A stretch of 40,793 bases of DNA from a virus, in IMG/VR virus record IMGVR_UViG_3300023223_000690, positions 1 to 40,793 of that record. One strand, written 5' to 3'. A program made the position numbers and the translations under genes. Numbering within the stretch: the first letter of the stretch is position 1; the number at the start of each line of letters is the position of its first letter. Of this stretch, positions 3,341-27,146 are shown piece by piece. The notes under the pieces are model-generated. The model saw only the letters and a list, made by a program, of their open reading frames with translations. It was not told the origin of the DNA and did no database searches.

Positions 3341-3347
3341 TCTTTTA

Positions 3348-3382
3348 AGGGGATGCCCGGTTATAGGGTATCCCTGCTTTTT
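3348..3382 (+). terminator. Intrinsic terminator or attenuator
   Basis: AGGGGATGCCC (3348-3358) pairs with GGGTATCCCT (3366-3375), with one bulged G and one mismatch, followed by GCTTTTT. This is a typical Rho-independent terminator. The next gene begins 11 nt later in the same direction, so either that gene is expressed by readthrough or this is an attenuator. Confidence 0.6.
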
Positions 3383-3393
3383 ATAAAATTATC

Positions 3394-3630: not shown

Positions 3631-3648
3631 TATTCTCACCTCTTTCTC

Positions 3649-4272
3649 ATGAGAAACCTATTCCTTATATTCTTTATGATCTTCGCTTTTTCATTCCCTG
3701 TGTTTAGCGCGGGGGATGAAATTGTGAATCTAGTTGCATTCGGTGACTCGAACACTTTCGGCAAAAACGTAAAATGGAGCTCCATCTGGAGTTTCAGGCT
3801 ACAAAAAACATACAAACAGGATCGATTCATAAATTCCGGGAAGAGTGGAAATACCGCTCTGGATTTACTCGATAGGCTACAAAAAGATGTTTACGATTAT
3901 TACAGAGAAGGGCAACGGAATATCGTAATAGTGAATATCGGTGTAAATGATCTTTATCCGCCGGAATCCGATCCGGATATCGTTTTCGATGATATTGAAA
4001 TAGCCTGGAGTCATCTTTCTGCTAATAACTGGGAATTATGGGCCAGCACAATTACACCGGTAACAGGCGATAATGTACGCAATGATAAAATCCGGATCCT
4101 CAATAAAAAAATACGGAAATCTGGAATTCCATATATTGACGGATACAAGATTTTCGTTCACCCTGATGACAACAATATGTCAAGGGCCAACTATATTCAA
4201 GCAGATGGAACCCACTGGTCCGGGCTTGGCCATAGAAAATTCTATAATTCAGTGAAGAAGAAACTTTTTTAA
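3649..4272 (+). CDS. Secreted SGNH/GDSL-family hydrolase
   Basis: The 207-residue protein has a signal peptide (about residues 1-20, ending VFSA). It then has the SGNH blocks: GDSN with nucleophile Ser34 (block I), a Gly in the SGKSGN region near 63-68 (block II), GVND with Asn100 (block III), and DGTH with Asp186 and His189 (block V). The family comprises esterases, lipases and carbohydrate deacetylases. With a signal peptide it should act outside the cytoplasm, for example by removing acetyl groups from surface polysaccharide or peptidoglycan. It follows two small membrane-protein genes in the early module. A second SGNH domain lies in the tail fibre at 24717-27146. The substrate is unknown. 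Confidence 0.85.
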   Translation: MRNLFLIFFMIFAFSFPVFSAGDEIVNLVAFGDSNTFGKNVKWSSIWSFRLQKTYKQDRFINSGKSGNTALDLLDRLQKDVYDYYREGQRNIVIVNIGVNDLYPPESDPDIVFDDIEIAWSHLSANNWELWASTITPVTGDNVRNDKIRILNKKIRKSGIPYIDGYKIFVHPDDNNMSRANYIQADGTHWSGLGHRKFYNSVKKKLF

Positions 4273-4281
4273 CCTCACCAC

Positions 4282-4497
4282 ATGAAAAAAACAATCCTCC
4301 AAATCGAAATACCTTATGAAATCGCAGAAGAGATTGAGAAAGATCGAATTGAATTCCAGGTTGAATCCACAGAAAGATTCATCGAATCGATGCTGATCGC
4401 CAGAAAGGGAATTTATAATTATCCGAAGTTCTGGCGCGAATGTTTCCGACTACGACCGGAAAAGAAAATCATTGACGAAAATAAACCAGAGGAATAA
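4282..4497 (+). CDS. Small hypothetical protein (71 aa)
   Basis: This is the last gene of the plus-strand module, 9 nt after the SGNH gene, starting MKKTILQIEIPYEI. The Glu/Ile-rich N-terminus followed by an RFIESMLIAR helix resembles ribbon-helix-helix-sized proteins, but I cannot assign a family. A bidirectional terminator follows 30 nt after the stop. Function is unknown. Confidence 0.55.
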   Translation: MKKTILQIEIPYEIAEEIEKDRIEFQVESTERFIESMLIARKGIYNYPKFWRECFRLRPEKKIIDENKPEE

Positions 4498-4527
4498 ACT
4501 GTTTCATGAAGGTAAAGGATGGAACTA

Positions 4528-4563
4528 CACAAAAACCCTGTTACCTAGACTGGGGTTTTTGTG
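4528..4563. terminator. Bidirectional terminator between converging operons
   Basis: CACAAAAACCC (4528-4538) is a perfect 11-bp complement of GGGTTTTTGTG (4553-4563), with a 14-nt loop. The A-run/T-run in the arms gives a GC-capped stem with a T tract in either direction. It sits exactly where the plus-strand module (ending 4497) and the long minus-strand operon (ending about 4634) converge. Confidence 0.75.
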
Positions 4564-4633
4564 CTATACAATAAAAAACATGGAACCTGTCAAATTACAG
4601 CCTCACAGGATTCGTTTTAAGAGGTTCTTTTGG

Positions 4634-4753
4634 TCACTGGCTTGTCTTCCCTCCTCTCGTTTTGATCTCTCCAGATGCCTCCTTTGCTTTGATCAATTTG
4701 ACCTGTTTGAGTGTGAACACTCTTCCGGATGGTGAACGGAACTTTCCTTTCAT
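4634..4753 (-). CDS. Tiny basic protein (39 aa), last gene of the minus operon
   Basis: This 39-codon frame starts 11 nt after the stop of the two-TM gene. It encodes a Lys/Arg-rich soluble peptide (starts MKGKFRSPSGRV, includes KQVKLIKAKE). No family is recognised. Position, spacing and a sensible composition support it, but its length alone does not. It ends about 70 nt before the bidirectional terminator. Confidence 0.35.
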   Translation of the reverse strand: MKGKFRSPSGRVFTLKQVKLIKAKEASGEIKTRGGKTSQ

Positions 4754-4764
4754 TGGCCCGGAGG

Positions 4765-4962
4765 TTATTTTTTCAAAAGGCATTTACGAAAGAGAAATAT
4801 TGCAATCGAAATTATAGAGCATCCAATCAAGAAACGGAAATCTTTTTCTGGAACATCTTTATCAAGAATGGCCGCGCAGAAAAATAATGCCCCCGCAATG
4901 AGGAATGTATAGCTGACAATCTTGGCGCCACATTGCCTGACATCGTAATCAAACATGGACAT
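4765..4962 (-). CDS. Two-TM small membrane protein (65 aa)
   Basis: Two hydrophobic segments (about residues 15-33 and 43-60) are separated by a charged turn (DKDVPEKDFR), and the C-terminus is basic (RKCLLKK). The size and layout suit a class II holin or another small phage membrane protein. It starts 4 nt after the peptide deformylase stop. The better holin candidate is at 9281, so this one could be an antiholin-like or exclusion protein. Either role is inference. Confidence 0.55.
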   Translation of the reverse strand: MSMFDYDVRQCGAKIVSYTFLIAGALFFCAAILDKDVPEKDFRFLIGCSIISIAIFLFRKCLLKK

Positions 4963-4968
4963 GGGGCT

Positions 4969-5442
4969 TTAGAAAATATGCTTTCCATTCATATGATCGA
5001 TTTCATGCTGCATGATAAAAGCGAATTCATTTTTTACTAGCTGTTCTTTGTGATCTGTTCTCTGCCCGGATGGATTTATTTCAATGAAGTTCGCAGTGAT
5101 ACGCGTATATCTATAAACTCCTCTTAGACACATTTTTTCTGCAAAGCTCATACAGCCTTCATTGTGTATTTTCCTTCTTTGCCCTGAGACTATATGCGGA
5201 TTCACAACTGCAGTGCCACCTTTCAATACAAAGAACCTGAGCGGGGCCTCCTGGTCTATCTGGCAGTGAGCCAGGGCAAGGGCTCCGTTCTTATGGTTGC
5301 CGATTGGCAAGTGACACATTTCGGCCATTAATGGCATCAGCTTTCTAACGAAAGTATCAATATCTCCATCTGTGCATTTTTTAGATACCTTGTTAGAAAT
5401 ATTTTGAATGACTCCCTTTATAGCATGTAATTTTTCACTCAT
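4969..5442 (-). CDS. def: Peptide deformylase
   Basis: From the start at 5442 the product is 157 residues. It has all three deformylase motifs in order: GALALAHCQ at about 53-61 (GxGxAAxQ-like), EGCMS at 95-99, and HEIDH at 146-150, supplying the Cys and two His metal ligands. The enzyme removes the N-formyl group from nascent proteins. It ends right after motif 3, without the long C-terminal helix of many bacterial enzymes, as in known phage deformylases. The frame is open upstream to 5709. I chose 5442 because ATGAGTGA overlaps the upstream stop by 8 nt, a pattern repeated in this genome. Motif 1 is degenerate. Confidence 0.85.
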   Translation of the reverse strand: MSEKLHAIKGVIQNISNKVSKKCTDGDIDTFVRKLMPLMAEMCHLPIGNHKNGALALAHCQIDQEAPLRFFVLKGGTAVVNPHIVSGQRRKIHNEGCMSFAEKMCLRGVYRYTRITANFIEINPSGQRTDHKEQLVKNEFAFIMQHEIDHMNGKHIF

Positions 5443-6286
5443 AGGAATAAAGAAATTTTGAATTTGGATCGAAAAAGACTGGCTCTCTTTGTATAGCCCG
5501 GTCGCAATTGATGTAATATGGACATTTAAAGCATTTTGTGGACCGCTCGCTTTCTTCCACCATGGGGAATTTTCCGGATTCTTGCGCTTCAATATACTGC
5601 TGCAGTGCATCAAATACAACGGCCCTTTTTTCAAGTAAGATTTTGGCCGGGATGGTGATAGAAATTGTTCTCGAGAATTTATGTTTATCGACAACATCAA
5701 TAATGGCATCTCTCAACGTGTCACTATCATCCTGCAACTGGATTAGAAGCTGGTAAAAGCTCATCTGAAAAAGATAATCCCATCCGAACTCTGAAATATC
5801 ATGGTGTGCACTTTCTACGGACCGCAAGAATTTATAATCCCGGAAGAAATTCGCTTTCGGATCCCTTGGGAACCTGTCAATCTCACCTCTAAGCGCATAT
5901 TTGCCCATATATCTGTTGGTTATCACCTTAAGCATTTGATAATCACCATTCAAATCTAAAATCGGCTGTCTCTCTGCTTCTTCTATGGCAAGTAAGACGG
6001 CTTTTCCTTCCGGTTCGCTTAAAACTTTCATCCCGGTTTCTAATGCATATTTTTTCCTATTCATTCTCGGCGGTGCGATAATCCATTTTTTGCGCCATTC
6101 TTTCTCACCATGATACAGAAAATCCTCAAAAGCTAAGCCCTGAAGGAACTTTGCATCATCCTCTTCGAAACCTTCTTCTTCTTTCTCATATTCAAGACAA
6201 TACCGGTGCTTACATATCAGAAAGTTCTTCAGCTTGCTGGAGGTTATAAAACCCCGGTTTTTCTCTAGATATGATTGATCGCTCAT
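5435..6286 (-). CDS. Cas4-like PD-(D/E)XK exonuclease with Fe-S cysteines
   Basis: The preferred start at 6286 gives 283 residues; the frame is open to 6478, but that overlaps the methyltransferase. The nuclease core shows GEID (134-137), DYK (Asp150, Lys152) and a Gln/Tyr segment (about 173-177), as in RecB/Cas4-type nucleases. Cys25 pairs with a C-terminal cluster Cys252, Cys255 and Cys261, the arrangement that binds a 4Fe-4S cluster in Cas4 and AddB. It is co-transcribed with a RecT-like annealing protein. The natural role is therefore the exonuclease of a two-component recombination system, making single strands for RecT. It starts 4 nt after the methyltransferase stop. Confidence 0.8.
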   Translation of the reverse strand: MSDQSYLEKNRGFITSSKLKNFLICKHRYCLEYEKEEEGFEEDDAKFLQGLAFEDFLYHGEKEWRKKWIIAPPRMNRKKYALETGMKVLSEPEGKAVLLAIEEAERQPILDLNGDYQMLKVITNRYMGKYALRGEIDRFPRDPKANFFRDYKFLRSVESAHHDISEFGWDYLFQMSFYQLLIQLQDDSDTLRDAIIDVVDKHKFSRTISITIPAKILLEKRAVVFDALQQYIEAQESGKFPMVEESERSTKCFKCPYYINCDRAIQREPVFFDPNSKFLYSYE

Positions 6287-6290
6287 TTTT

Positions 6291-6965
6291 TTAAAATAAA
6301 ATTTCTTGCTTAAGACGTTCTTCTCCAATTCCGCAATATTCTTCTTCAAGATCGCAACATATCCATTTGAAATCCATCTCTTTACATACCTTTGCAGTTG
6401 TAAAACTTCCAGCAAAACCATCGAATATGAGATCGCTTTCTTTTGCATAGTTCTGTAAACACCAACGCATGAGTTCAAGAGGTTTCTGAGTAGGATGCCA
6501 ACGAAACTCTTTGTTTTTCATATCTTCCTGCAGCATTCCATTCCAACGATATTTGAGTTTTCTGACTGCTGTTTTGAATGATGTCCATGCTAGTTCGCAA
6601 TCAGCAAAACTAGAAGTATGATTGTCTTTATCCCATACTAACCAACATGAAGAATTGCTAAGATATTGAACAAAGTAATTCCCTCCCCAAATAATTTGAT
6701 TTTTTGAAATACGGAAGATTTCCTTGAAATATTCTTTGCTAGGAATGTCATTATTCCATTTATAATTTCCATAATCTTTGGTGCCAGTAATCTTTGAATA
6801 ACTATTTTTTCTATAAGTTATATTGTTCCCGATTCCATAAGGCGGATCTGTAATCACCAGGTCAATTGCTTTATCAGGGATCATGCGCATTACTTCCAAA
6901 CAATCACTACATACCACTTGATTAATCATGTCTTGCCAATTTTTAATTTCAGAAAGTGTTTTCAT
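6291..6965 (-). CDS. DNA methyltransferase (N6-adenine/N4-cytosine type)
   Basis: From the start at 6965 this is a 224-residue enzyme. DPPY (40-43) is catalytic motif IV, HPTQKP (157-162) follows, and DGFAGS (182-187) is the AdoMet-binding motif I. Motif IV before motif I is the beta-class order. Phage copies usually protect viral DNA from host restriction. The upstream frame to 6983 overlaps recT. The start at 6965 lies 2 nt after the recT stop. No partner restriction enzyme gene is seen, so this is an orphan methylase. The recognition sequence cannot be read from the protein. Confidence 0.9.
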   Translation of the reverse strand: MKTLSEIKNWQDMINQVVCSDCLEVMRMIPDKAIDLVITDPPYGIGNNITYRKNSYSKITGTKDYGNYKWNNDIPSKEYFKEIFRISKNQIIWGGNYFVQYLSNSSCWLVWDKDNHTSSFADCELAWTSFKTAVRKLKYRWNGMLQEDMKNKEFRWHPTQKPLELMRWCLQNYAKESDLIFDGFAGSFTTAKVCKEMDFKWICCDLEEEYCGIGEERLKQEILF

Positions 6966-6967
6966 TT

Positions 6968-8053
6968 CTAAGAACCTCGACAAAGAGAACTTAGTTCTTG
7001 ATCTGCTTTTTCAGCTTCTTCCGGGGTCAGCTCGTAAGCATAATTCTTTCCGAATGCCTCCTTTATATAGTCAAGATAGCTAAAACTTGGATCTTCCTTT
7101 CTTATCTCCCCTTGCAATTCCTTAAACCTCGCTATACGAGTAGTTTTTTCTTTTGGAATGACAGAAGCTTGTTCAGGTTTTTCTTTCTCATCTTCCGGAT
7201 CCTTTCCGCTTTTAGATTCCATTGCTTCTACGGCTTCTTCATATTTTTTATCTTCGTCTACTGTTCTATCTTCTTCAACTTCTTCTTTTGTCTTGGCATC
7301 TGGGCCCTTGAACAATCCTTTCAATGCTTCTTTTGACTCTACAATGCTACTTGGAACTTCTGCTTTTTCAACCGGAACTGTTTCTGTTTCTACTATTTCT
7401 GCTTCTTCAACCTTTTTGGTTTTCTTTGCTTTCGCTGCTTTTGTTTTCTTCTTATCCGATTTATTCTCAAAATTCTCTAAACCTTCTTCTGCTGTAGTTT
7501 CGATTGCAGCTTCCATAAATTCTGCTTCTTCTGCTAAATATACCACACCTTGATCAAGAACTTCCGGAATGTATTTTCGGATTATGCGGACCACTCCATG
7601 CCAGAAAAGCTTATCTTTTGGTGCTTTCTTAGCTGCTTGAGAATTTAATTTCTCTAATTCAAGTAATGTCGATGGATAAGAATAACTTTCGTCTCCTTTT
7701 GAAACAGTAACAGTACACAATTTCGGATTCGCATCATCATCATATTCATCTGAGATTGTCCATCCTGCCTTACGTAATTTCTTTGTCATAGCACTTCCAT
7801 AAATATTGACCCTGCCATTGACAATATAAAGAGAATTCATGGATTCCATAGGAGCCATACCCATTTCTAATCCTGTTTGTATTTTTACCAATGCCTGGTG
7901 AGTATTTTTGACATCTGAACCAAAACAACCAGATTTAAAAAACTCATTGGCCAAGGTAAGCATATTGGTAAGCCGATCTTTTTGAAAATAAGTAGAAATC
8001 TGATCGGCGGTTCCTTGAGGATTAGTAGATTGTATAGCTGTAGGATCAGTCAT
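6968..8053 (-). CDS. recT: RecT-family single-strand annealing protein
   Basis: The protein has 361 residues. The first ~190 match the RecT-like pattern: HQALVKIQTGLEMGMAPMES, then VNGRVNIYGSAM, a SYSYPS region, and a WHGVVRIIRKYIPEVLDQGV segment. This family pairs complementary single strands in phage recombination and replication. From about residue 190 there is a long Lys/Glu/Ala-rich acidic tail before a short C-terminal helical part, much longer than in typical RecT. The tail may bind a partner such as the host SSB; that is inference. Its exonuclease partner is probably the Cas4-like nuclease two genes downstream. Confidence 0.85.
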   Translation of the reverse strand: MTDPTAIQSTNPQGTADQISTYFQKDRLTNMLTLANEFFKSGCFGSDVKNTHQALVKIQTGLEMGMAPMESMNSLYIVNGRVNIYGSAMTKKLRKAGWTISDEYDDDANPKLCTVTVSKGDESYSYPSTLLELEKLNSQAAKKAPKDKLFWHGVVRIIRKYIPEVLDQGVVYLAEEAEFMEAAIETTAEEGLENFENKSDKKKTKAAKAKKTKKVEEAEIVETETVPVEKAEVPSSIVESKEALKGLFKGPDAKTKEEVEEDRTVDEDKKYEEAVEAMESKSGKDPEDEKEKPEQASVIPKEKTTRIARFKELQGEIRKEDPSFSYLDYIKEAFGKNYAYELTPEEAEKADQELSSLCRGS

Positions 8054-9538: not shown

Positions 9539-9904
9539 TTATCTTTTCGATTCTGCATCCAGTACAGCATTAAGCAATGCTTTTCCATCTCCTGAGAAAT
9601 CAATCACTCTGATAGGATCATCTTTATGGATTACTGATTCTAAAGCAGTCAATGAAAACAATTCTTCCAATTCACCACCTCCTATAGTCAATCTTCCTGT
9701 CCTCGCTGTTTCGATCAATTCTCTTTTCCTAGCCAGAAATTCTTCTTGAGTATTGAATCTATATGCTTTCACTACTTCGATGACTTCGGGAGGAGTTTTT
9801 TCAATTATTGTAATTACCTCTGGATCATTTAATGCAATATTACCGCCAGCTCCCACGGAAACACCGAATGCTAATATTGCCGCTCTTTGCTTCCAATCTT
9901 TCAT
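9539..9904 (-). CDS. Hypothetical protein with weak N-terminal anchor (121 aa)
   Basis: Residues 8-24 (AAILAFGVSVGAGGNIA) are mildly hydrophobic after a basic start, so a signal or membrane anchor is possible. The rest is soluble, with a helical Arg/Glu stretch (about 50-68) and a Gly-rich turn. Its start overlaps the stop of a 24-residue hydrophobic peptide by 4 nt (ATGA). The lysis-like context suggests an envelope role. No family is recognised. Confidence 0.5.
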   Translation of the reverse strand: MKDWKQRAAILAFGVSVGAGGNIALNDPEVITIIEKTPPEVIEVVKAYRFNTQEEFLARKRELIETARTGRLTIGGGELEELFSLTALESVIHKDDPIRVIDFSGDGKALLNAVLDAESKR

Positions 9905-9998: not shown

Positions 9999-10739
9999 TT
10001 ATGGAGCTACTATGCTGTTAGGTATTGGCGGCTCTTCTGCAACTGTTGTGCCATTTACAACAGTTGCATCATTACCATTTACGACACCTGTTTCTGCGCT
10101 TTGACCATTGACAGCCCAATATTCTACCAAATCATCTGCTTGTATCTGCCTTGGATTTATACCAGAAGCTAGTGATTTAATATGATTTTCAGATAATGGA
10201 GTATCCCAAATTGCTACGTGTCCAACATCTCCATCAAACGGATCTTCTGTACCACTACCCCCTGACCCTGCACCAATCCTAACAGGTGCAGAAGTCGATG
10301 GCATATTCCCTGATGTCAATTTCGACCCATCCTCTGCTCCATTGAGATAAACCCGTACTTCTGAGCCATCATACACACCTGCAATGTGATGCCAATTATC
10401 CGTTGACAAAGTTGTTGATCCTAGAGCGATTTGTGTTGCGCCATTATAGATAGCAAACAAAGGCTTATCACTACTGTCACTTGATAAAAGGTACTGGAAA
10501 TCACCACCCGCATCTGACCATTTAGCAAGAATTTTTCCTTCACCATTAAGAATTTCTAATCTTATCCAAGCAGACAAAGTGACTGTGTCGCCTGTGAGAT
10601 TCAATTCTGATGGATTCCCAGCATCCAAGTAATCATTTGAACCATCAAAGTTTCTGGCAGCCATAGCCACTCCAGCCATAACACCCACAAGAATGAATGT
10701 TGCCAGAAAGCCTTTGGCTAATTTTTTAAAGATATTCAT
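9999..10739 (-). CDS. Sec-exported LamG/jelly-roll protein
   Basis: The 246 residues begin with a clear signal peptide (NIFKKLAKGF, hydrophobic core, cleavage near GVAMA at about 27). A LamG/concanavalin-like domain follows (about 28-195): FDGSNDYLDAG, then LSAWIRLE, a WHHIAGVYDGSEVRVYLNG strand pair, and HVAIWDTPLS. These domains bind carbohydrate or protein. A Thr/Val/Asn-rich tail ends the protein. It is the third of three consecutive exported fibre-like genes and starts 1 nt after the stop of the previous one. A signal peptide is not expected on a cytoplasmically assembled virion protein, so display on or secretion from the infected cell is inferred. Confidence 0.8.
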   Translation of the reverse strand: MNIFKKLAKGFLATFILVGVMAGVAMAARNFDGSNDYLDAGNPSELNLTGDTVTLSAWIRLEILNGEGKILAKWSDAGGDFQYLLSSDSSDKPLFAIYNGATQIALGSTTLSTDNWHHIAGVYDGSEVRVYLNGAEDGSKLTSGNMPSTSAPVRIGAGSGGSGTEDPFDGDVGHVAIWDTPLSENHIKSLASGINPRQIQADDLVEYWAVNGQSAETGVVNGNDATVVNGTTVAEEPPIPNSIVAP

Positions 10740-10740
10740 A

Positions 10741-12288
10741 TTACTGAGTTATGGTTATTGAAAGTATTTGAGCATCACCAACCATGTCATCGTCACCATC
10801 AGAAACAACACGCTCTACTTCCATTCTGAAGTAATCACCTGCCGCAATAGAATCGGCTTGAGCCTGAGTCAAGGTAATAGATGTTGTTGTTATAATTCCT
10901 GATGTTGCGTTCGTATCACTGTTTCCTGTTTGCTGTGTAGCAAACGAATCTGAATCAATGTCATTACCACCCTCTGCGTTCGCTTCAAATGAAACTCCCC
11001 AAGTAACACCGCCTGTTATCGCTGATTCAGCCACCCAGTCGATATTTACAGTGATGTCATCACCGCTATAGCCACTACCAACACTATTAGTAAATATTAC
11101 GTTCTCAGCCGTAGTGTCATCGAATACGATGATGGGATGACCATTGCGTGAGAATGCCCCTGCTGGATTACTAGAAGGGTATAAAGCATTATTAGCATCT
11201 AAAATTTTTGTAAAAGGAGAACCTCCGTCACCATCTGAGTCTGGAACATTGGAATTTGCTGCCCAATCCGCTTGTGGATCAGTTTGATCCTTACTTGTGC
11301 TTGTAAAAATTTGCCCACCATTAGCCAAATTGAAAGCATTCCCTACAACTAAATGACTTGTCGTAGTAGAAGATTGCTTGATATCGAAAAGAGTCTCGTT
11401 TGATTCAGGAAGAAAGAAATTGGAAGATACTTGTCGAGAACCATGATCTCCTTCTAAAGTCATGAGAACCGTGTTTTGTAATACTCCATTCACTGTAGCA
11501 CTGCCAGTGACAGCATCAGTAATAATCTCGTCATCTTGAAAAGTTCCCGATACTCCGGACAATACGATTTGTCCTGTAGCTCCAGAATCACGATCAATCT
11601 CTATGGTTCCGGTTGCTCCGCTAGTCGCTCCCGTTGCTATTCCATCCAATGTAAAATTAGCAGTTTGTGCATCATAATCCAGTCGTTGCCAATTTTGACT
11701 ACCAAAAACCTGTAATCTGCTAAAGGTAAAAGCACTTAAATCTTCATAAACTAACCCATCCCCATATCCGATCAAATTTCCAAAAAATATTGTTACACCT
11801 ATATTTCTAATCGTTCCTATTTCTTTCGCGTTGATTACAATACTCGAATCTATTAATAAAAAACCACTAGGATCACCATCTATATCAAAAAATGATCCAT
11901 TAGGTGCGGATATGTTTGCATAATCAATAGCAAGAAAACTATTCGCAGGAACGGAAAGATCAGTAATCAATGCCCCTGTCCCTGTATAAGTCATTTGAGC
12001 AAATGCAATCGCTTTTACTTTTGCTAATCCATCCGGGAATGATATTGGATTGACTATAGAAAAATCTTGCATAATTCTATATTCCGTCCCAGCATCAAGT
12101 TCATGAGCACCGCCAACCAAAGGCGGAAGATCAGCTTCACTGTAAAGATCAACTGAGCCATGAATAGGATTCCTACTCCCTGCCCCTCCTACTTGCTGCG
12201 CTAAAACATTTTGGATCATAAAAATTCCAACTGCCAAGCCCATCAAAACAAAAAGACCGCCTATGATTCTCTCTTTAAAATGTTTCAT
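10741..12288 (-). CDS. Sec-exported fibre-like beta protein (515 aa)
   Basis: The signal peptide runs to about residue 31 (hydrophobic core GGLFVLMGLAVGIFM, cleavage after NVLA). The rest is almost all short beta strands with Gly, Ser, Thr and Asn turns. It includes a parallel-beta-helix-like centre (IDYANISAPNGSFFDIDG and similar rungs), a repeated GATSGATGTI segment, and a C-terminal strand domain. The pattern is that of phage fibre, spike or adhesin proteins, but no enzyme motif is visible. Its start shares one base with the stop of the 664-aa gene (TAATG), so the two are translationally coupled. Confidence 0.7.
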   Translation of the reverse strand: MKHFKERIIGGLFVLMGLAVGIFMIQNVLAQQVGGAGSRNPIHGSVDLYSEADLPPLVGGAHELDAGTEYRIMQDFSIVNPISFPDGLAKVKAIAFAQMTYTGTGALITDLSVPANSFLAIDYANISAPNGSFFDIDGDPSGFLLIDSSIVINAKEIGTIRNIGVTIFFGNLIGYGDGLVYEDLSAFTFSRLQVFGSQNWQRLDYDAQTANFTLDGIATGATSGATGTIEIDRDSGATGQIVLSGVSGTFQDDEIITDAVTGSATVNGVLQNTVLMTLEGDHGSRQVSSNFFLPESNETLFDIKQSSTTTSHLVVGNAFNLANGGQIFTSTSKDQTDPQADWAANSNVPDSDGDGGSPFTKILDANNALYPSSNPAGAFSRNGHPIIVFDDTTAENVIFTNSVGSGYSGDDITVNIDWVAESAITGGVTWGVSFEANAEGGNDIDSDSFATQQTGNSDTNATSGIITTTSITLTQAQADSIAAGDYFRMEVERVVSDGDDDMVGDAQILSITITQ

Positions 12289-14282
12289 TAGTTATCAGAT
12301 AAAGGCGACGCACAATACCAAGCATCATCTCCAAGGTCATATTCAATTTCAATGATATCACCTTTTCCAAGTACAACATCTAATCCTCCATTACAATTAA
12401 AACCCGAACCTGCCAATTGTGCTTCACCTTGAATCGTCAGAGTATTTGTATCACTATCTCCTTGGATTTTTATAGTTTCCCCATCACTACCATCTACAAT
12501 GCTTGGTGTAGCGGTTATCGTGACAGCACCTCCACTTCCTTGTACGCGCATAACACAATTTGTTCCAGTAATCCCACCTCCTGCAGTAATATTTTGTGTT
12601 GCTGAAGGGGTACATCCCTGGGTACCATTTACTTCTAAAGTTGCGCCTGCTGTCGTGGTTCCGATCCCAACATTTGTGCCGTTGAATGTCATGACCGTTC
12701 CCGTGCTCACACTCCTGCTGTTAGAAAATTTTAATTTATCGGCATCAGTATTATCAACACCTATACTTTTTGAATTGGAATCTCCAATAGAAAAAACAAT
12801 ATTAGCGTCTCCAGTGCTCGTTTGATCAAGTTGTAACATTCCATTATTGAATGTGTTAGTAGATTCAATAAGTACATTCACTGACCCAGCAGTTGTAATT
12901 GCTTTCAATGCGTTCGGATCATTCGTAGTGTCATTCTGCGTAAAAAGTCCGGCACGGACAGATTCTGTGTCTGCAACAACTACATTTAATCTTGCACTAA
13001 CAGCAGTAACCAATCCTACTCCAATCCCCACATTTCCAGCATCATCAATTTTCATTCGAGGGAGTCCAACAGCTACATCATCCTTATCTGTATATTGCCA
13101 AAAATAAAGAACATTTTCGCTAGCATTTCCAGCACTACTTCTATTATTTCCCATAGCCCATTTCAAAGCATCTGCATCTCGAAATTGATATTCAGAAAAA
13201 CCGCCACCAGAATCATCATATTCTTGAACAAGTTCAGAAGATGCTCCGCCATCTATATGTAATATTTCACTCGGAAGGCTTGTACCAATCCCTACATTCC
13301 CACTTGAATCAACTCTAATTGCTTCTACTACATTTCCCGAAAGAAAAGATAATTCACCAGAAGCTAGGGCTGTTCCAAATTGAAACAAACCAGTTGTATT
13401 TTGCATTTGAAATAAAGCATTTGCAACAACTGAAGATGGAGATTTAAATTGAATGGCACCAATGCTTGCATCAGGAGTTAGGATAGTAATTCCTGCTCCT
13501 GCGCTATTTTCAACAACTAAATCATCAACATTGGAATCAGCTGTAACAGAACCAGCAGATGCAGTATGAGTATGTAGAGTACCATCGGGTACTACAATCC
13601 CTATTCCGACATTCCCGGAAGAATCGATTCTTACTGCTTCATCAAAAGATTCTGTCATTAACGCAATTTCACCACCAGTTAAATTTGCTCCAAACTGTAC
13701 TAACCCTGTTGATTGTTGCGCCTGAAATATTGCATATGCATCCGCGGACGGACTTGACCAACGCACACCGCCAACATTTACGTCAGGTGTTAATATGGAT
13801 ATCCCTGCGTTACCATTATTCTCTGCGATAATTTCATCTGCATTTGTATTTGCAGTAACGCTTCCTGCAGTAGCAGTATGAGCATGTAATTTCCCGTCAG
13901 GTGTTGTTGTTCCGATTCCAAGCTCATCAGCTGCATCATCAAAACAAAAATTCGCATTATCTTCTGCAATATTATTTGATCCGTCTACGAAAAGGACTGA
14001 ACATTCAGTAAATGGACTGCCAAGCGCGATGCTTACCGTAAGGGTTCCAACTGTCAAAGCCGTAAAAAATCCATTAGCAATAGGATTTGATACGGTCCCT
14101 AAAACAAATGTAGCCAAAGAAGGTACAAGTGTCGTCGAATCAGCCAACTTCCATAAATCTCTCGGTCCTCCAATTGTTCCTTCAGTTCCTCCAGATGGAC
14201 CAATGGCGGCTGCCGAGCTATTCATAACTAACATCACAGCCAGAAGCAGCGAAGTGATAAGCTTCTTAAAATATTTATTCAT
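12288..14282 (-). CDS. Sec-exported fibre with NVGIG repeats (664 aa)
   Basis: A signal peptide (residues 1-26, cleavage near NSSAAA) is followed by a beta-rich fibre. GIG-type turns recur at about 122, 224, 330, 417 and 538, mostly as SGNVGIGT or close variants; in many fibre and surface proteins they mark repeat boundaries. Residues about 121-222 and 225-330 form a tandem duplication. The last ~90 residues form a beta domain with four cysteines ending WYCASPLSDN, a common C-terminal domain of such fibres. The protein is likely an adhesin or fibre on the cell surface. It follows a small structural gene expressed from the TTGACA promoter at 14702-14730. Confidence 0.75.
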   Translation of the reverse strand: MNKYFKKLITSLLLAVMLVMNSSAAAIGPSGGTEGTIGGPRDLWKLADSTTLVPSLATFVLGTVSNPIANGFFTALTVGTLTVSIALGSPFTECSVLFVDGSNNIAEDNANFCFDDAADELGIGTTTPDGKLHAHTATAGSVTANTNADEIIAENNGNAGISILTPDVNVGGVRWSSPSADAYAIFQAQQSTGLVQFGANLTGGEIALMTESFDEAVRIDSSGNVGIGIVVPDGTLHTHTASAGSVTADSNVDDLVVENSAGAGITILTPDASIGAIQFKSPSSVVANALFQMQNTTGLFQFGTALASGELSFLSGNVVEAIRVDSSGNVGIGTSLPSEILHIDGGASSELVQEYDDSGGGFSEYQFRDADALKWAMGNNRSSAGNASENVLYFWQYTDKDDVAVGLPRMKIDDAGNVGIGVGLVTAVSARLNVVVADTESVRAGLFTQNDTTNDPNALKAITTAGSVNVLIESTNTFNNGMLQLDQTSTGDANIVFSIGDSNSKSIGVDNTDADKLKFSNSRSVSTGTVMTFNGTNVGIGTTTAGATLEVNGTQGCTPSATQNITAGGGITGTNCVMRVQGSGGAVTITATPSIVDGSDGETIKIQGDSDTNTLTIQGEAQLAGSGFNCNGGLDVVLGKGDIIEIEYDLGDDAWYCASPLSDN

Positions 14283-14733: not shown

Positions 14734-17700
14734 TTATTCGATTGTTAAAATAAATTTCTGAAATTCCGCATCGTTCTTTTTGGATGCTTCTTTCAATTGG
14801 TCCGCATCAATTTCATATAGTTCTGCAATCTCTTCAATGTCTTTTGAATAAAGCAAGCCATCATTTCTGATTGTGTTCTCCCATGTTTTAAAAAAGATTG
14901 CTTGATTCCTTGTCATGTTGTTCTCCTTCTCTGCTGCTTCCAGGAGTCCATCATCAAAAGCATCTTTGACGAATTGAGCGATTGATGATCCTTCTTCTGC
15001 TTGTTCTATTGATACAACTTTGTATTCATACCTCTGCCTATCATCTGCATCGATAGAATCTTTTCCTAAAGCATCCTGCAATTCTGCTGCCGTTGCTTGG
15101 CTTCCTTTTTCGAGCGCTAGGTTCCATGCATCCATTCCCTCAATATCATCTTCACCCAAAAATCTTGAAATAGTTTCCTGATCTTCTTCAGGTAATTCAT
15201 TGAATTTCAAAAATGAATCCACAACTCCAGGATTATCACTGAAATTAAATGTCTTAATATCTTCCTGTCCTTTGAAAAATGCAGTTACAAAATCTTTTGC
15301 TCTCTTCTCTCCAAAGACATCATTATCAAGTCCTTTGTCTACTGCAGCTAGGAATCGTTCCTTTCTAGCATCATTAAGATTCCGCTTGGCCGCCACATCC
15401 AACGTATCAAAAATCTCATTGTTTACAGCAGAAGAAACTTTCGACTCTCTCACGAATTTCCTGAAGAATGGAATTCTATTATCAGCAATCTCTTCTCCTG
15501 ATACCAGCTTCGCTCCCGTGTCAATCGAATTAGAAACAAATCTTCCCGCTCCGGAAGTGTATTGATCCCACAAATGATCTAAATCATCTGGAAACACATC
15601 TACCAACCCATCGGATGCCTTAAATATCATTTCCGCAAGAAGTTGTGCTGCTTTTGTTGTCCCTTTGCTTGTTTGTCCTGACTGTGGAGGAGGAGTCAAT
15701 CCTAGATTACTATATTGCGGATGTATTTCAAATCCCATAAAATTCTTATTTGTAGCTATTTCATAAATTGGCCTTACTATCGTAGGAGCTACTCCGGCGG
15801 CACTAGATTCAACAGGGGAAAATGATGAATATGTGGTTTGGATCACATTTAACACGGCCTCTTCATTGGTTTTTTTGCCAGCCATAAGGTCATATGCATT
15901 CGCTCCGAAAGAATAGAATGGTGTATATCCATAACCGATATTCCACAGAGTAAGTTGTTTCCCTCCGATCCCTGGTATTTCTTCCGGAAATTCGAATGCT
16001 ATTTGCCTGTTCCTTATCCAGTCCGGTATATTATCTTCTCCAATTTGATCTTGTATAAATCTGACCATAAATCCAAGGAATGCTAACCCCGCCGCCGCCC
16101 TCCTTGCTCTTTTAGATTTCAATTGAGTCCTTATAACTTTAGATCCACCCTGTATGGCAGGATTTATAAATGCCCACCATGCTTTTAAAACCGGTGACAT
16201 TTCGCCTTGCCTGGAAAAATTAACAGTCAAATCAGCAGCAGCCTGCACCGCTTTCTGTTTGCTCATCCCTCTTTTTATAAGCTCCTCATATGCAGAAAAT
16301 CTTACACCTAATTCAACCATGCTATTCACATCTTCCAATGTTTTTCCAATTATTCGTATGGGATTTTTGATTTTCTCAATACCCTGATTTGAAATTTGTT
16401 TTTCTAATTTCTCCAGAGATGTTTGAGCTTCCTTTGCATTATTGACCCAAAAATTTCCTACATCTCCACCAACATCAAGAAATTCCTGAAAGACCTTGTC
16501 TTTCTTCTGGCCTCTTATATCACGCCAAATTCTTCTTTGAGAAGGTATTGTATTCTTTGCTACCGCCGAAACTAAGCCTTTTTGGTCTACCTTCTCAGCT
16601 TTTACATTTATTAAAGCTTCAGTTAAATCTCTTTGAAAATTTGTGACTATAAACTCCGGATTAAATTTTGTTGCAAGCTGGCTCCATAATGAAGTAAACA
16701 CTCTTACCCCCTTAGAAACTCCTCTAAGCTCTGCTATTTTAGTATTTCTCAACGCCCATGCCACTCTTTCATCTTTGACAGTTATAAACTTTTGTTTTCC
16801 ATCTACTTTTACACTAACGACATCATCTCCCAATTTGAATTTTGGATCGAATTCCTGTATTTCGCCTTTGTTATTGAATACCGGTATGGTTTTTTGAGAT
16901 TCAATCTGGAATTGTGTTTTCATAAAAGGAAATGCTTCCACTAAAGAAAGTATTGTTTTCCCAACATCATTTTTTATTATTCTAACTTCAGCTTTCTGTA
17001 AATTCCGAAAGATTTGAGCTGTAGGTGATAGAACTTCCTTCTTGCTTCCTCTCGCTCTTTTTATTTCTTTTCCTTTTATATCTATCCCCGAACCAGTGCC
17101 AGGTCCAAAGAATTTATCCTCAATATCTCTTTGTAATGGAACATAGTTTTTGTATGCAGCTTGTATCAACTTTTTTTCTTTTGGTTTAATCATGCCATTT
17201 TTTTCAAGCATGTCTAATGTGCGATCACTTACTTTTTTCAAGTCTTTGGCAAATCGATCTAATTCTTCTTTTTGCCCTGAATCTTCAGCATTTTTTATTA
17301 TTTGCTGTGCTTCAATATCTGTCATTCCACTTAATCCATCCTCCGGCACACGCCCTTCTTCAACGGCCACTTCTTTCATCTTTGCGTTTCTTTCCGGACC
17401 ATGTAAAGCCCTCATATATGTGTCTAAATCAGATAATTCTATGTCGGCAGTATTTAATTCTTGCATGAATTTTAATTTTTCTTCCTCTATTTTTTCTACT
17501 TTTCTTGACACCACCCTTGGCAGCATGTCTTTTTTTGCCCATAGATCAAGATAATCAGGAACTTCTTCCCCGGTTTCTTCAATAATTAATTCATTGAGTT
17601 TTTTTAAACGGATATTGCTGTCTTCGATATATCGTCTTACGGCCTCCCATTTCGTTTCTTTTGGCAAATCAATTTGTGGCAAATCCTGAGATAAAATCGG

Positions 17701-19854
17701 TGATGTTGTCTGTGATGGTGGCACCCCTGAAGGAACTGGACCTAGAACATCTTTTATATCTGGCCTTATTTCCACTTGCTTCTCTTTTTTTACAGGAGGA
17801 TTCTTGGCAATCTGTGTATTTCGTGCGGCCTTTGTAGTGGCAAGAGCAACTTTCTCTCCAGTAGGTGTTCTCAATTCCTGCTTAAAAAATTGAAATGCTT
17901 CATCTGTATCAAATGTTTCTCCATTGACTTGACCTTCTTCCAATGTTTTGAAAACTCTCTCAAATTCCTGTAGTCCTTTCGATGGTCCTTTTGTTTTCAC
18001 TTCTGCACTCTGTAATCTTTGATTAATCAAATTGACGATTGATGGCGCATCTGTTTGTTCCACAAAATCAGAAAAATTCTGTGCTCTTCCGGAAATTATA
18101 TTTGCTCCAAATCTTTTGAATTTACTCAGACTTTTGGCTAATTGCCTTGCTATTTCCTCAGTTCTTGTGCGAGCGCCTTCTGGTACTTCTGAAGGCGGTA
18201 ATGACGGTTTTTTGGCTTGCTGCTCAATTAATTCTATAGCGCCTTCTAAATCAACAAATGAATCAAGCTTTTCTTCAAAAGCATCTTCTGCTTTCTTTGT
18301 CAAATCTTTGAGTTCTTGAGCATCGAGACTGCCAAATCTTTCTTCAAGTCTTTTTGAAGCTGCTAATTCCTGAGCTTCGGTCGGTTCTCCCGGAACCAGT
18401 TCTCCACCCGGCGGTACGGGTTTTTCAAATCCCGGAATTCGTATGAATCCTTTCTGATCGGCAATCAAATCAAGATTCCTTTCAATCGTTTCTTTCGCAT
18501 TACCTTTAAATGTCTCTGCTTTCTGCTTCATGTTCTCGGTGAATGCTTCGGAAACTCTTTTTAATTCTTCTGGCTTTAATCTCGGTACACGAATCTTAGC
18601 TGCTCTTTGTCCTTTTAAAACAGCGGCCCTTTGTTTTGATGTAGAATGCTTTACCCATTCAACAGCAAGAGGATTCTGTTTTACACCAATTTCTCCCACC
18701 TGGACCACCCTTATATCTTCTCTAGGAATCTTTACTGTCTTATGTGTAATCGGCCGTGTTATATCTGCCAGACCTTTTATATCCTTCCTCAGATTCACTC
18801 TTTCGCTCTGTGCGAACTTTCCGGCTGATTGAAAAACATTCCCTCCAAATTTGAATGCTGACATTATAAGAGCATCCAGTGCGGATTCTTCATCAGTCCT
18901 GCCATCTTGTTTTGAAATCAAAAACTGAGTTGAAAAGACTGCCGGGACTCCAATGGTTATTGAGTTTGGTAAGAAAGCCACACCTAGCAGTGCTCCTTGT
19001 ACAAAATCTTTTGCTCCGGAAAGCAATCTGCTTTCGCCTTCTTCAAATTCCCTCGCTTGGCCAAGCGTCGTAGTAGCACCTCCAAATATTAAAGCATTTT
19101 TTACAACTGAAAATGCTGTTGGAAATCTTTGAACAAATGCGGAAACAGCCGGAATGGAAGTCGCAGCCTGGATAGGGACCGTTATTGCTTTTGCAAGGCT
19201 GGCAAATAAAGCTACATTCCCTATGGCCTCAGTCGCTTTCGCAAAATCCTGATCGACATCTATCCCTTTGAATAATTCTTCAGTTGTTGCAGCATCTCTG
19301 CCTGTAATTTGCTCTAATGCAAACACAAGAGGATCAGCCGCTTTTGAAAACCCAAATCCGGCGCCGGCAACAGCTTCCTGAATACGTCCTTCCGTAAAAG
19401 GTTTTTTAAAATCTTCTAAAATTGCATCCCCGATCGATGCAAGAGATCCTCCAAATCTATTTATTTTACTCTGGAATGTTTCATTGCCCTCATCATCAAA
19501 GAAGGCCTCTTCAGCAAGAAATGTTCTTGCGGGTATCCTCCCTTGAGAAATCGTTGCAGAAGGAATCCCGCTAGGTGGTTCTATTATACCTGGTTCCAAG
19601 TTCTGATTCAATTCTCTCCGTAGGCTGCTATCGACTCTAAGGCTGACGGGAACACGCCTTTCTGTAGTTTCTCCGGTCACTAGATCATCCGATGTTGTAA
19701 TCCTGCTCCTGTTATCTGCTTCTCTGTCTATTTCAACTTGGAGTTCACTTTGAGAAACTTCATCATCATCTTCATCCTCTTTTCTGAATGCTCTCCGGAC
19801 AAGAGATTGTCCTGCTGTCTGTGCCGCTGATATGAGTAAACTTGCTAATGGCAT
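14734..19854 (-). CDS. Giant virion/ejection protein with LPD38-like domain (1706 aa)
   Basis: This is the largest gene in the window. The N-terminus (1-150) is acidic and basic in turn. Residues about 205-330 hold hydrophobic, Gly/Ala-rich helices. A long charged helical middle follows (400-900). Residues about 1050-1300 match the LPD38 (large polyvalent protein-associated) pattern: LATKFNPEFIVTNFQRDLTE, VNSMVELGVRFSAYEELIKR, NFSRQG, then KAWWAFINPAIQG and a hydrophobic stretch. In short-tailed phages such giant proteins travel in the capsid and enter the cell with the DNA. I see no transglycosylase motif. It lies after the 843-aa M23-like protein. The domain call is from pattern and the ejection role is inference. 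Confidence 0.7.
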   Translation of the reverse strand: MPLASLLISAAQTAGQSLVRRAFRKEDEDDDEVSQSELQVEIDREADNRSRITTSDDLVTGETTERRVPVSLRVDSSLRRELNQNLEPGIIEPPSGIPSATISQGRIPARTFLAEEAFFDDEGNETFQSKINRFGGSLASIGDAILEDFKKPFTEGRIQEAVAGAGFGFSKAADPLVFALEQITGRDAATTEELFKGIDVDQDFAKATEAIGNVALFASLAKAITVPIQAATSIPAVSAFVQRFPTAFSVVKNALIFGGATTTLGQAREFEEGESRLLSGAKDFVQGALLGVAFLPNSITIGVPAVFSTQFLISKQDGRTDEESALDALIMSAFKFGGNVFQSAGKFAQSERVNLRKDIKGLADITRPITHKTVKIPREDIRVVQVGEIGVKQNPLAVEWVKHSTSKQRAAVLKGQRAAKIRVPRLKPEELKRVSEAFTENMKQKAETFKGNAKETIERNLDLIADQKGFIRIPGFEKPVPPGGELVPGEPTEAQELAASKRLEERFGSLDAQELKDLTKKAEDAFEEKLDSFVDLEGAIELIEQQAKKPSLPPSEVPEGARTRTEEIARQLAKSLSKFKRFGANIISGRAQNFSDFVEQTDAPSIVNLINQRLQSAEVKTKGPSKGLQEFERVFKTLEEGQVNGETFDTDEAFQFFKQELRTPTGEKVALATTKAARNTQIAKNPPVKKEKQVEIRPDIKDVLGPVPSGVPPSQTTSPILSQDLPQIDLPKETKWEAVRRYIEDSNIRLKKLNELIIEETGEEVPDYLDLWAKKDMLPRVVSRKVEKIEEEKLKFMQELNTADIELSDLDTYMRALHGPERNAKMKEVAVEEGRVPEDGLSGMTDIEAQQIIKNAEDSGQKEELDRFAKDLKKVSDRTLDMLEKNGMIKPKEKKLIQAAYKNYVPLQRDIEDKFFGPGTGSGIDIKGKEIKRARGSKKEVLSPTAQIFRNLQKAEVRIIKNDVGKTILSLVEAFPFMKTQFQIESQKTIPVFNNKGEIQEFDPKFKLGDDVVSVKVDGKQKFITVKDERVAWALRNTKIAELRGVSKGVRVFTSLWSQLATKFNPEFIVTNFQRDLTEALINVKAEKVDQKGLVSAVAKNTIPSQRRIWRDIRGQKKDKVFQEFLDVGGDVGNFWVNNAKEAQTSLEKLEKQISNQGIEKIKNPIRIIGKTLEDVNSMVELGVRFSAYEELIKRGMSKQKAVQAAADLTVNFSRQGEMSPVLKAWWAFINPAIQGGSKVIRTQLKSKRARRAAAGLAFLGFMVRFIQDQIGEDNIPDWIRNRQIAFEFPEEIPGIGGKQLTLWNIGYGYTPFYSFGANAYDLMAGKKTNEEAVLNVIQTTYSSFSPVESSAAGVAPTIVRPIYEIATNKNFMGFEIHPQYSNLGLTPPPQSGQTSKGTTKAAQLLAEMIFKASDGLVDVFPDDLDHLWDQYTSGAGRFVSNSIDTGAKLVSGEEIADNRIPFFRKFVRESKVSSAVNNEIFDTLDVAAKRNLNDARKERFLAAVDKGLDNDVFGEKRAKDFVTAFFKGQEDIKTFNFSDNPGVVDSFLKFNELPEEDQETISRFLGEDDIEGMDAWNLALEKGSQATAAELQDALGKDSIDADDRQRYEYKVVSIEQAEEGSSIAQFVKDAFDDGLLEAAEKENNMTRNQAIFFKTWENTIRNDGLLYSKDIEEIAELYEIDADQLKEASKKNDAEFQKFILTIE

Positions 19855-24716: not shown

Positions 24717-27146
24717 TTAGAAAAATAGATTTGAACCATCACTATAAATTCTTTTATTCCCATTATCAGTAGTAATCGTTGCCGTAGCCGATCCATTAAA
24801 TGTTTCACTGCCTTCCGATGCAAGGGTTATCGTATGTGTTGCTGCTGCCCCGGCTATATCCGCAATCAACCATCCTTCAAAATTAGGAATACCGATCAAT
24901 GCGCTAGGGAATGTGATTGTTCTTGGCGCAGTTAATGTTTTCATGAATACCGCTTTATCTTCCAGTGTCAGAGTATAATTGGCATCGCTTATCTCATGAA
25001 TTCTTTGCTTTGCCTTATTATTTTCACTTTCAATTCCTAGTGGGAATATGGCTGCAATTAAAGTATCGCGCACAAGTTCCCTTCCGGCAGTATCCAGATG
25101 CAAATTATCACCGAGTATCAATCCTCCTTGTGTTTGATCGTCATCTGTAGACAAAACAAACGACGACCACAAATCCACCACATGATATCCAAATACTTTT
25201 GTGTTTTTCCTGATGAATGTATTGTATTCCCTTAGTTTCTGGTTCTTTGAATGTATCTTATTATTCCCATCAGTATCATCCACTGTAAATGCTATGTCGA
25301 TTGATCCGGACATTCCGGAGTTGTTTTGTTCAGTCAATGTGATTGTTCCATCTCCTACGAGAGTTCCTTCTACTACAAGAGCTGTTTTTGCGACATCACT
25401 AAATAAGGAAAATTTTCTTGTTCCTGCGGTATCTGTTAGTTCCCAATACAATATCCCTGCATCACTATTTTGAGAATCCATCTCTGTTAAATCGAGATTA
25501 GATAACTGACTACTGGCATCTCCTTTGTCTTCCAGTTCATCACCATTTGCCGGGAAATATGTCATCAGATATAATTCCCATCCATCTTTCATAATATTTT
25601 GAATCAGGGTTGTTAATGCTGCCGTGGCATTTACAACCGTGTCAACTGTTGATCTTCCAAAATCATTGGTCCCGATCAATAATGTCGCAATATTACGCGC
25701 TTCTTTTGTTCTTCTCGGAAAGAGAGCAGTGCTCAACCTAGCATCAACTTCTGCAATTTTATCTCCTGCCAATCCTTCGTTTATAATTGTAACGGATTCA
25801 TTTTTGAATTTGTCTAACATCAATGCCGGATAATTTCTTCCGAAATCAAGAGATGCTGCCAGGCGTTGTGTATTAGAATCACCCAAGCAAACAACATTCA
25901 CAAAGTTCTCAATAATTTTGCTCTTATAATTATCAAATTGCGGAATATCTGAGGAAGACTGAGAAGCTAGTCCTGTAATTGGATCAATGAAAGTTTCCAG
26001 GATGCTATCATTTGATGCGATCATAGATAAAATTTCTCCAGTTGCATCTCGCAGAATGGCACTAACATGATTATTAAACACCTTTATCTCCCAATTAAAT
26101 GTCGCAGCATTTGATAATGCGGGAGATAAAGTGTTTTCAACTACCGTTGTAGTAATACTTGATACTACTTTTGAAAATCTAAAATGTGCGGTTGAATTTG
26201 CATAAAAGATGAGCAGATAATCAGAACTTACAGTGCGTCGAAAATTTAACATTGCTGATTTGATATTGGCATTAATATCCACGCTTATAACTATGTTCTT
26301 TCCATATGAGTTGCGTTCTGACCATGAAGCCAGTCTGAAATTTCCCGGACCTTCCGTGATTGTTAATTTTCCTCCCGACACAGTAAATGTCGAATCTGTA
26401 TCTGAATTTGATACTTCCCATTCATTATCATTTACAGAGAAATCATCACTTCTCTGTACTTGTTTTTTTTCATAAAGTAATTCATTTTTATGGGCTTGGA
26501 TTTGTTGATTCGTTCTCAATGGAGAATTTACCACCGTGTTGTCTTCTCCTGCCTCTGCTTGCGCTTGTGTCGCAATAGCTGTTGATCCTGATACATTGGC
26601 ATCGATCATTTGCTTTATCCTCTGTGCAGTCCATGCTCGAACAATAGTAGCTGTTGCCGCCTCTGCTTCTGCTTGAGAAACAGTATCCAGTGTATTTGCT
26701 CTTTCCCATGCTGTATTTGCAGCATTCCTTTTATATGCACCAACTCCGTTCGTACCATCTGTCGTGTCTAATGTCAATTGCTGATGCGGTACAACTTTTA
26801 TTGCATATGAATCTGATGTTGACCATGTGTTATCTGTTCCTTCGATCAATTTCGTCAAAGTTAATTGAGTCTCCGAATTAACCGCTTTCACAACTGCAAA
26901 AGAGGAATCAGTAATATTCCCGACTATATCACCGGCAACAACTCCATCAGTAACAAAAGTTGCAGTGCTGTCGATCAGAACACTTCCGGATGCTACTCCT
27001 GTTGTCGTGCCTGTTATCGGGCTTGGCAATGTAGAAACTTGTAATGATGGAGCATATAACATCTCCCTGATCTGGTGTTCGGCCAAAACCTCTAGCCCAT
27101 TAGGATCATTTTCAAACTGGTAATAAATATTTCTAGGAAGTGTCAT
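24717..27146 (-). CDS. Tail fibre with SGNH hydrolase domain (809 aa)
   Basis: The order is: an N-terminal virion-binding and beta region (1-150); two tail-fibre repeats (about 157-190 and 195-222, QAEAEAATATIVRAWTAQR and QAQAEAGEDN...PLR); a jelly-roll domain (about 233-395); an SGNH hydrolase (about 415-705); and a C-terminal beta domain with the ATHTITLASEGSETFNG type. The catalytic blocks are GDSN with Ser424, GTND with Asn494, and DNLH with Asp680 and His683. An insert of about 70 beta-rich residues lies at about 555-628, between blocks III and V. It probably binds and de-esterifies host surface polysaccharide during adsorption. The first SGNH gene at 3649 is separate and secreted. Confidence 0.85.
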   Translation of the reverse strand: MTLPRNIYYQFENDPNGLEVLAEHQIREMLYAPSLQVSTLPSPITGTTTGVASGSVLIDSTATFVTDGVVAGDIVGNITDSSFAVVKAVNSETQLTLTKLIEGTDNTWSTSDSYAIKVVPHQQLTLDTTDGTNGVGAYKRNAANTAWERANTLDTVSQAEAEAATATIVRAWTAQRIKQMIDANVSGSTAIATQAQAEAGEDNTVVNSPLRTNQQIQAHKNELLYEKKQVQRSDDFSVNDNEWEVSNSDTDSTFTVSGGKLTITEGPGNFRLASWSERNSYGKNIVISVDINANIKSAMLNFRRTVSSDYLLIFYANSTAHFRFSKVVSSITTTVVENTLSPALSNAATFNWEIKVFNNHVSAILRDATGEILSMIASNDSILETFIDPITGLASQSSSDIPQFDNYKSKIIENFVNVVCLGDSNTQRLAASLDFGRNYPALMLDKFKNESVTIINEGLAGDKIAEVDARLSTALFPRRTKEARNIATLLIGTNDFGRSTVDTVVNATAALTTLIQNIMKDGWELYLMTYFPANGDELEDKGDASSQLSNLDLTEMDSQNSDAGILYWELTDTAGTRKFSLFSDVAKTALVVEGTLVGDGTITLTEQNNSGMSGSIDIAFTVDDTDGNNKIHSKNQKLREYNTFIRKNTKVFGYHVVDLWSSFVLSTDDDQTQGGLILGDNLHLDTAGRELVRDTLIAAIFPLGIESENNKAKQRIHEISDANYTLTLEDKAVFMKTLTAPRTITFPSALIGIPNFEGWLIADIAGAAATHTITLASEGSETFNGSATATITTDNGNKRIYSDGSNLFF

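Follow-up and report, generated by a model that had tools for sequence, protein, structure and literature searches.

Three consecutive fibre-type proteins with predicted Sec signal peptides in a podovirus-like phage

Tail fibres are taught as cytoplasmic products. Why, then, do three consecutive fibre-like genes of one phage each begin with an apparent signal peptide, and what would their products do beyond the membrane? The window, i.e., the whole stretch of DNA analysed here, is an entire IMG/VR record of 40,793 bases from a podovirus-like phage that encodes a terminase, a portal, a major head protein and an LPD38-domain protein. Its genes run in the order terminase, portal, head, adaptor, 809-aa GDSL protein, nozzle-like protein, p252, p843, LPD38 protein, a 123-aa protein, the fibre-like trio and small membrane-type genes ("adaptor" and "nozzle" are working labels drawn from this gene order). 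The 1706-aa LPD38 protein lies upstream of the trio and marks the late structural region, and the position of the trio itself, in the structural-to-lysis stretch of the genome, looks late. The fibre genes of Pelagibacter phage HTVC304P likewise come after an internal virion protein. Pattern scans for close relatives of the C-terminal part of the 1706-aa protein returned none. The phage also encodes a peptide deformylase domain (window 4969-5709; Pfam, 1.3e-12). The features that bear on the question are as follows.

14734..19854, minus strand: 1706-aa LPD38-domain protein of the injected type (Pfam PF18857, 9.4e-32)
12288..14282, minus strand: 664-aa NVGIG-repeat fibre protein with N-terminal signal peptide (PHROG tail fibre, 3.6e-14)
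14205..14282, minus strand: predicted signal peptide of the 664-aa protein, residues 1-26 (rule-based score 7.4; 0 of 5,000 shuffles)
10741..12288, minus strand: 515-aa fibre protein with N-terminal signal peptide, a Vibrio-phage-like part and CTD150
12199..12288, minus strand: predicted signal peptide of the 515-aa protein, residues 1-30 (score 7.7; 0 of 5,000 shuffles)
10744..11199, minus strand: CTD150 domain of the 515-aa protein (alignments A2/A3; AlphaFold2; Foldseek)
9999..10739, minus strand: 246-aa LamG (ConA-like lectin) protein with signal peptide (Pfam PF13385, 2.9e-29)
10659..10739, minus strand: predicted signal peptide of the LamG protein, residues 1-27 (score 7.4; predicted cleavage between AMA and ARNF)

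A first-pass annotation had described three coupled minus-strand genes at 9999-14282 for fibre-like proteins of 664, 515 and 246 aa, each with a signal peptide, and it had the coordinates, lengths and coupling right: the 664- and 515-aa genes overlap by 1 nt (TAATG), and the 515- and 246-aa genes are separated by a 1-nt gap. The N termini read MNKYFKKLITSLLLAVMLVMNSSAAA for the 664-aa protein, MKHFKERIIGGLFVLMGLAVGIFMIQNVLA followed by QQ after the predicted cleavage site for the 515-aa protein, and MNIFKKLAKGFLATFILVGVMAGVAMA followed likewise by ARNF for the 246-aa protein. Signal peptides were scored by a rule of our own, based on a positive n-region charge, an uncharged h-region and an A-x-A type site, and the trio (7.4, 7.7 and 7.4 for the 664-, 515- and 246-aa proteins) holds the top three scores among all window ORFs. 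When residues 2 to 45 were shuffled, none of 5,000 shuffles reached the real score for any of the three proteins, and of the 3,263 internal Met positions scored in proteins of related phages, just one passes 6. Internal ATGs are present inside all three signal peptides. The start of the 664-aa gene that includes the signal peptide is supported because it follows a T-rich tract (T 0.68 in 25 nt, versus 0.40 to 0.44 before the internal ATGs) such as also precedes other starts of this phage, and the corresponding starts of the 515- and 246-aa genes are supported because they are tightly coupled to the upstream stop. Chance signal peptides or misread starts were rejected on the basis of the shuffles, the internal-Met control and the coupling. 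Every predicted cleavage site of the trio lacks a Cys at +1 in a lipobox test. Overall, the trio is very probably exported via Sec.

Descent of the three signal peptides from one ancestor by duplication was rejected, as their DNA similarity is no greater than that of shuffled controls. Directly downstream of the trio, a 121-aa protein (9539-9904) has a weaker signal-peptide-like N terminus. Shine-Dalgarno sequences are almost absent before the starts of this phage (all genes, window 160-40746). A TTTATTCTTT-like motif lies about 15 to 25 nt ahead of several starts (genes 9281, 28555, 29150, 30169 and 37909), with 27 matches at no more than one mismatch in the window against 15.6 expected, and may be a promoter or translation signal.

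Two further genes of the window encode GDSL-type proteins.

3649..4272, plus strand: 207-aa GDSL-type hydrolase with predicted signal peptide (Pfam PF13472, 1.3e-16; signal peptide score 5.8)
24717..27146, minus strand: 809-aa GDSL-domain protein lacking a signal peptide, in the canonical spike slot between the adaptor and nozzle-like genes

The 207-aa hydrolase, for whose signal peptide 22 of 5,000 shuffles were equally good, is related to the GDSL domain of the 809-aa spike (BLASTP, 2e-7). It is a probable second exported, envelope-acting protein, and the phage apparently exports one form of a domain that its own spike, which has no signal peptide, carries too.

What the three proteins resemble was the next point to settle, and the LamG and NVGIG-repeat assignments made earlier were borne out. 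The 246-aa protein reaches 102.6 bits against Pfam Laminin_G_3 (PF13385; curated cut-off 27.6; E 2.9e-29), and the 664-aa protein matches a PHROG tail-fibre family (E 3.6e-14). The latter has its repeat shaft in common with NVGIG-type tail fibres, being 28-36% identical there to those of cyanophages P-SSP3 and S-CRES1 and Pelagibacter phages HTVC304P and Ran, but these fibres differ in having no signal peptide (for Ran, judged from the neighbouring fibre). Its mature N-terminal part matches exported surface proteins of Patescibacteria. Residues 39-197 of the 515-aa protein resemble proteins of Vibrio phages, including KVP40, that are encoded near capsid genes, and its C-terminal 150 aa form the CTD150 domain, modelled by AlphaFold2 as a beta-sandwich (pLDDT 87). 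Foldseek aligned this model to CBM22, CBM4, CBM61 and Eph ligand-binding domains at a TM score of only about 0.5, suggesting a modest resemblance to carbohydrate-binding modules. A single-sequence structure prediction of the mature 515-aa protein reached a pLDDT of 38 and was discarded. No match to the 664- and 515-aa proteins was found in a PDB sequence search at E up to 1, and pattern scans for close relatives of the two gave none. Taken together, the trio consists of fibre-type proteins that probably bind glycans.

The CTD150 and LamG proteins also travel as a pair. An alignment-based scan located CTD150 in 47 viral loci, with LamG adjoining in about 40 of them, and among the CTD150 proteins of these loci only that of phage L142 (besides the window's own) carries a signal peptide. 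The cassettes of environmental phages (L096-L141, G021-G026) hold the same two proteins in the same order, the nearest LamG homologues being 60-68% identical and placed directly after the CTD150 protein, but they differ from the window in having no signal peptides, other backbones and often a neighbourhood of connector and tail genes. These LamG homologues begin M-ARNF where the window reads AMA and then ARNF, so that the predicted mature N terminus of the window protein equals that of its homologues once Met is removed. As the first-pass annotation had assumed, such fibres normally lack signals: KVP40.0366, NVP1034X_16, the phage fibres matched by the 664-aa protein and the cassette relatives other than L142 do. 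Because of these relatives, CTD150 plus LamG can be read as a mobile phage fibre unit to which signal peptides were added in the window; they were apparently gained by a cassette that is usually produced in the cytoplasm. The same annotation had named homologues without the N-terminal segment as grounds for giving up export. Such homologues do exist for the 246- and 515-aa proteins, and they indicate that the signal peptide was added, not that it is irrelevant. CTD150 was not confirmed in any genome contig, one pattern being used, and no isolated phage with a signal-peptide-bearing homologue of the trio proteins was found. The window LamG lacks two cysteines that are found in most of its nearest homologues without signal peptides.

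To what extent does the pattern recur? L142 is an unrelated phage (GC 0.53, with tail terminator and minor tail genes around the locus) that encodes four consecutive signal-peptide proteins of 135 aa, 595 aa (CTD150), 246 aa (LamG) and about 420 aa, the last weakly fibre-like. Its four genes lie at 3203-7415 within a tail module that runs from tail terminator to minor tail protein, and the last product has a proline/threonine-rich linker and 12 cysteines. We also surveyed 94 loci surrounding genes related to the major head protein of the window for ORFs of at least 180 aa with a signal peptide score of at least 6. Only 10 of 731 ORFs reach this score, every one of them fibre-, spike- or LamG-like, a class assigned by inspection. 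These ORFs, together with two from longer contigs, are listed here.

L151, 94-locus survey: 699 and 257 aa
L153, 94-locus survey: 1029 aa
L198, 94-locus survey: 333 and 596 aa, consecutive
L202, 94-locus survey: 564 aa
L225, 94-locus survey: 437 aa
L227, 94-locus survey: 565 aa
L232, 94-locus survey: 223 and 683 aa
G486, longer contigs: 448 aa (spike-like) and 2012 aa

Non-fibre proteins of at least 180 aa with signal peptides also occur in the longer contigs (G005, 210 aa, lysis-type; G478, 199 aa). At least eight phages of the capsid family besides the window have large signal-peptide-bearing fibre, spike or LamG proteins, and the trait is present in about 4 of 27 longer contigs besides the window, an approximate frequency since many contigs are fragments. 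In L153, L202, L227 and L232, the signal-peptide protein is the sole large one in or beside the slot after the adaptor, where their relatives have spikes without signal peptides (the contigs of L202, L227 and L232 stop before the nozzle gene). A homologous domain follows the signal peptide in the fibres of L202, L227 and L232, all of which keep that signal peptide. In G034, where the spike slot lacks a large protein, the only fibre candidates seen are its two signal-peptide fibres. A shared tail-attachment domain that might separate virion from exported spikes was present in only three contigs and was uninformative. In the proposed search of related phages, the homologues of the 515- and 246-aa proteins almost always lack signal peptides, and the fibre family of L202, L227 and L232 retains them. 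Finding the pattern again in other phages shows that it is no peculiarity of a single contig, and this recurrence, along with the signal peptides themselves, supports the export that had been proposed; the display on the infected cell, the aggregation and the complex of three proteins suggested with it are conjectural. Judged from the predicted signal peptides, their addition to fibre-type genes is found also in other phages, including the unrelated L142. Literature searches for papers on signal-peptide-bearing tail fibres of tailed phages found none.

Cysteines number 6, 0 and 0 in the 664-, 515- and 246-aa proteins, 4, 8, 4 and 12 in the signal-peptide proteins of L142, and 3, 5, 3 and 3 in those of sister phages. 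Parity was therefore dropped as evidence for disulphides, being even in the window and L142 but odd in the sister phages; as the counts are not consistently even, disulphides give no clear support.

Matches to bacterial genomes lead to one phylum in particular. Among 145 genomes from the phylum of the Nealsonbacteria genome G034, 20 have a match to the 664-aa protein; the figures are 4 of 148 for the phylum of a Bacteroidia bin and 1 of 150 for that of a Rhizobiales bin. Several of the chromosomal proteins so matched are long and signal-peptide-bearing. The L202 fibre matches 5 of 192 genomes of G034's phylum and 1 of 198 of the Bacteroidia bin's phylum, and the L153 fibre matched none of 145 Patescibacteria genomes. 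Two of the five genome bins that hold the capsid gene are Patescibacteria, the phage contigs in both of these fit their own bins best in tetranucleotides, and the capsid has a match in 3 of 380 genomes of G034's phylum. Patescibacteria are thus candidate hosts of some phages in the capsid family. The L150/G033 phage contig, binned as Bacteroidia, has a tetranucleotide fit of 0.44 to that bin versus 0.63-0.67 to two Patescibacteria genomes and is probably misbinned. Patescibacteria chromosomes (L253, L254 and L246) also encode long signal-peptide-bearing GIGT-repeat proteins, partly consecutive, that are phage-fibre-like.

Exported giant repeat proteins of Patescibacteria have the segment after the signal peptide in common with the 664-aa protein, and several carry signal peptides, but they are chromosomal, have about 1,000-4,300 aa and bear other N-terminal domains. 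The MAT fibres of Bdellovibrio bacteriovorus combine a signal peptide with phage-fibre-like shafts and variable adhesive tips and sit on the predator surface (PMC10769870); phage-like fibres with signal peptides can therefore be displayed on a cell surface. The trio is like them, as compared by description only, in joining a signal peptide to a phage-like fibre shaft, whereas MAT fibres are chromosomal and predator-encoded, with a conserved beta-rich domain of about 130 aa after the signal peptide and S74 in many (PMC10769870). Phage T5 Llp, a small superinfection-exclusion lipoprotein that binds FhuA in the periplasm, is likewise phage-encoded and, as predicted for the trio, exported, acting on the receptor from outside the cytoplasm (PMC9586334); in contrast, the trio comprises large, non-lipidated fibre proteins in an apparently late region.

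As a whole, the explanation that we tentatively place ahead of others is a Sec-exported fibre cassette that masks surface glycans from outside. The trio, lying between the injected-type protein and small membrane-type genes, would be produced late and pass the host Sec pathway, signal peptidase would cleave the signal peptides, and the mature proteins would fold beyond the cytoplasmic membrane. There they would bind envelope or cell-surface glycans, occupying or masking those that virions use or stick to, and the masked dying cell and its debris would neither trap progeny nor admit further phage. The GDSL hydrolase, probably exported on its own, would work in the same direction. The lectin- and CBM-like folds of LamG and CTD150 speak for this reading, and masking or clearing, comparable to the action of T5 Llp on a protein receptor (PMC9586334), fits the window best because a spike without a signal peptide is present and a GDSL enzyme appears to be exported as well. 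We regard masking as the most likely role while still holding it with considerable doubt. Superinfection-exclusion proteins are often expressed early (PMC9586334), whereas the trio looks late, and the signal-peptide proteins in the spike slots of L153, L202, L227 and L232 fit a virion role better.

The late position of the trio and those sister spike slots make a virion role after export also possible: the trio and the sister spikes would leave by Sec, mature outside and join particles at lysis. We consider this somewhat unlikely. Signal-peptide proteins fill the slot of the relatives' ordinary spikes in the four phages just named and partly in G486, they are the sole fibre candidates seen in G034, and both the connector and tail genes around the ordinary cassettes and the gene order of HTVC304P agree with virion fibres; purified P22 tailspikes reportedly attach spontaneously to particles in vitro, which we count in favour. 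However, the slot of the window already holds a spike without a signal peptide, the trio lacks a recognised tail-attachment domain and, to our knowledge, no tailed phage routes its tail fibres through Sec. That a podovirus lineage, possibly of Patescibacteria, Sec-exports its receptor-binding virion fibres and attaches them to particles beyond the cytoplasm, against the usual view that tailed phages are assembled within the cell, is unlikely. It is distinctly improbable that the genes mimic or derive from MAT-like surface fibres of the host and keep or alter attachment of the infected cell to neighbouring cells or to its own host cell. The skew of the 664-aa matches towards G034's phylum, the signal peptides on several matched chromosomal proteins, the L202-type fibre matches and the two Patescibacteria bins with their tetranucleotide resemblance all accord with such a takeover, but long-term adhesion would be of little gain to a phage without recognised lysogeny genes, and the 515/246 pair is a cassette of phages that the one pattern used did not detect in any genome contig. 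Finally, the signal peptides might be unused, with internal ATG starts (e.g., MAARNF) or a retained anchor giving ordinary virion fibres assembled in the cytoplasm. Homologues without signal peptides and the internal ATGs in all three would allow this, yet textbook signal peptides in three successive genes, tightly coupled starts, a signal peptide kept across a homologous family and the almost wholly fibre-like character of the large signal-peptide proteins of sister phages make it very improbable.

Glycan masking by an exported cassette thus stays our preferred, tentative reading, and the recurrence behind it spans one capsid family plus one unrelated phage. The findings connect the fibres of phages with the phage-fibre-like adhesins that predatory and ultra-small bacteria export, and they advise caution, as signal-peptide-bearing fibre genes on contigs of uncultured bacteria are not necessarily cellular. 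Recurrent fibres with Sec signals would mean that, in some phages, either a coat or shield of fibres forms outside the cell during infection or part of the virion is finished there.
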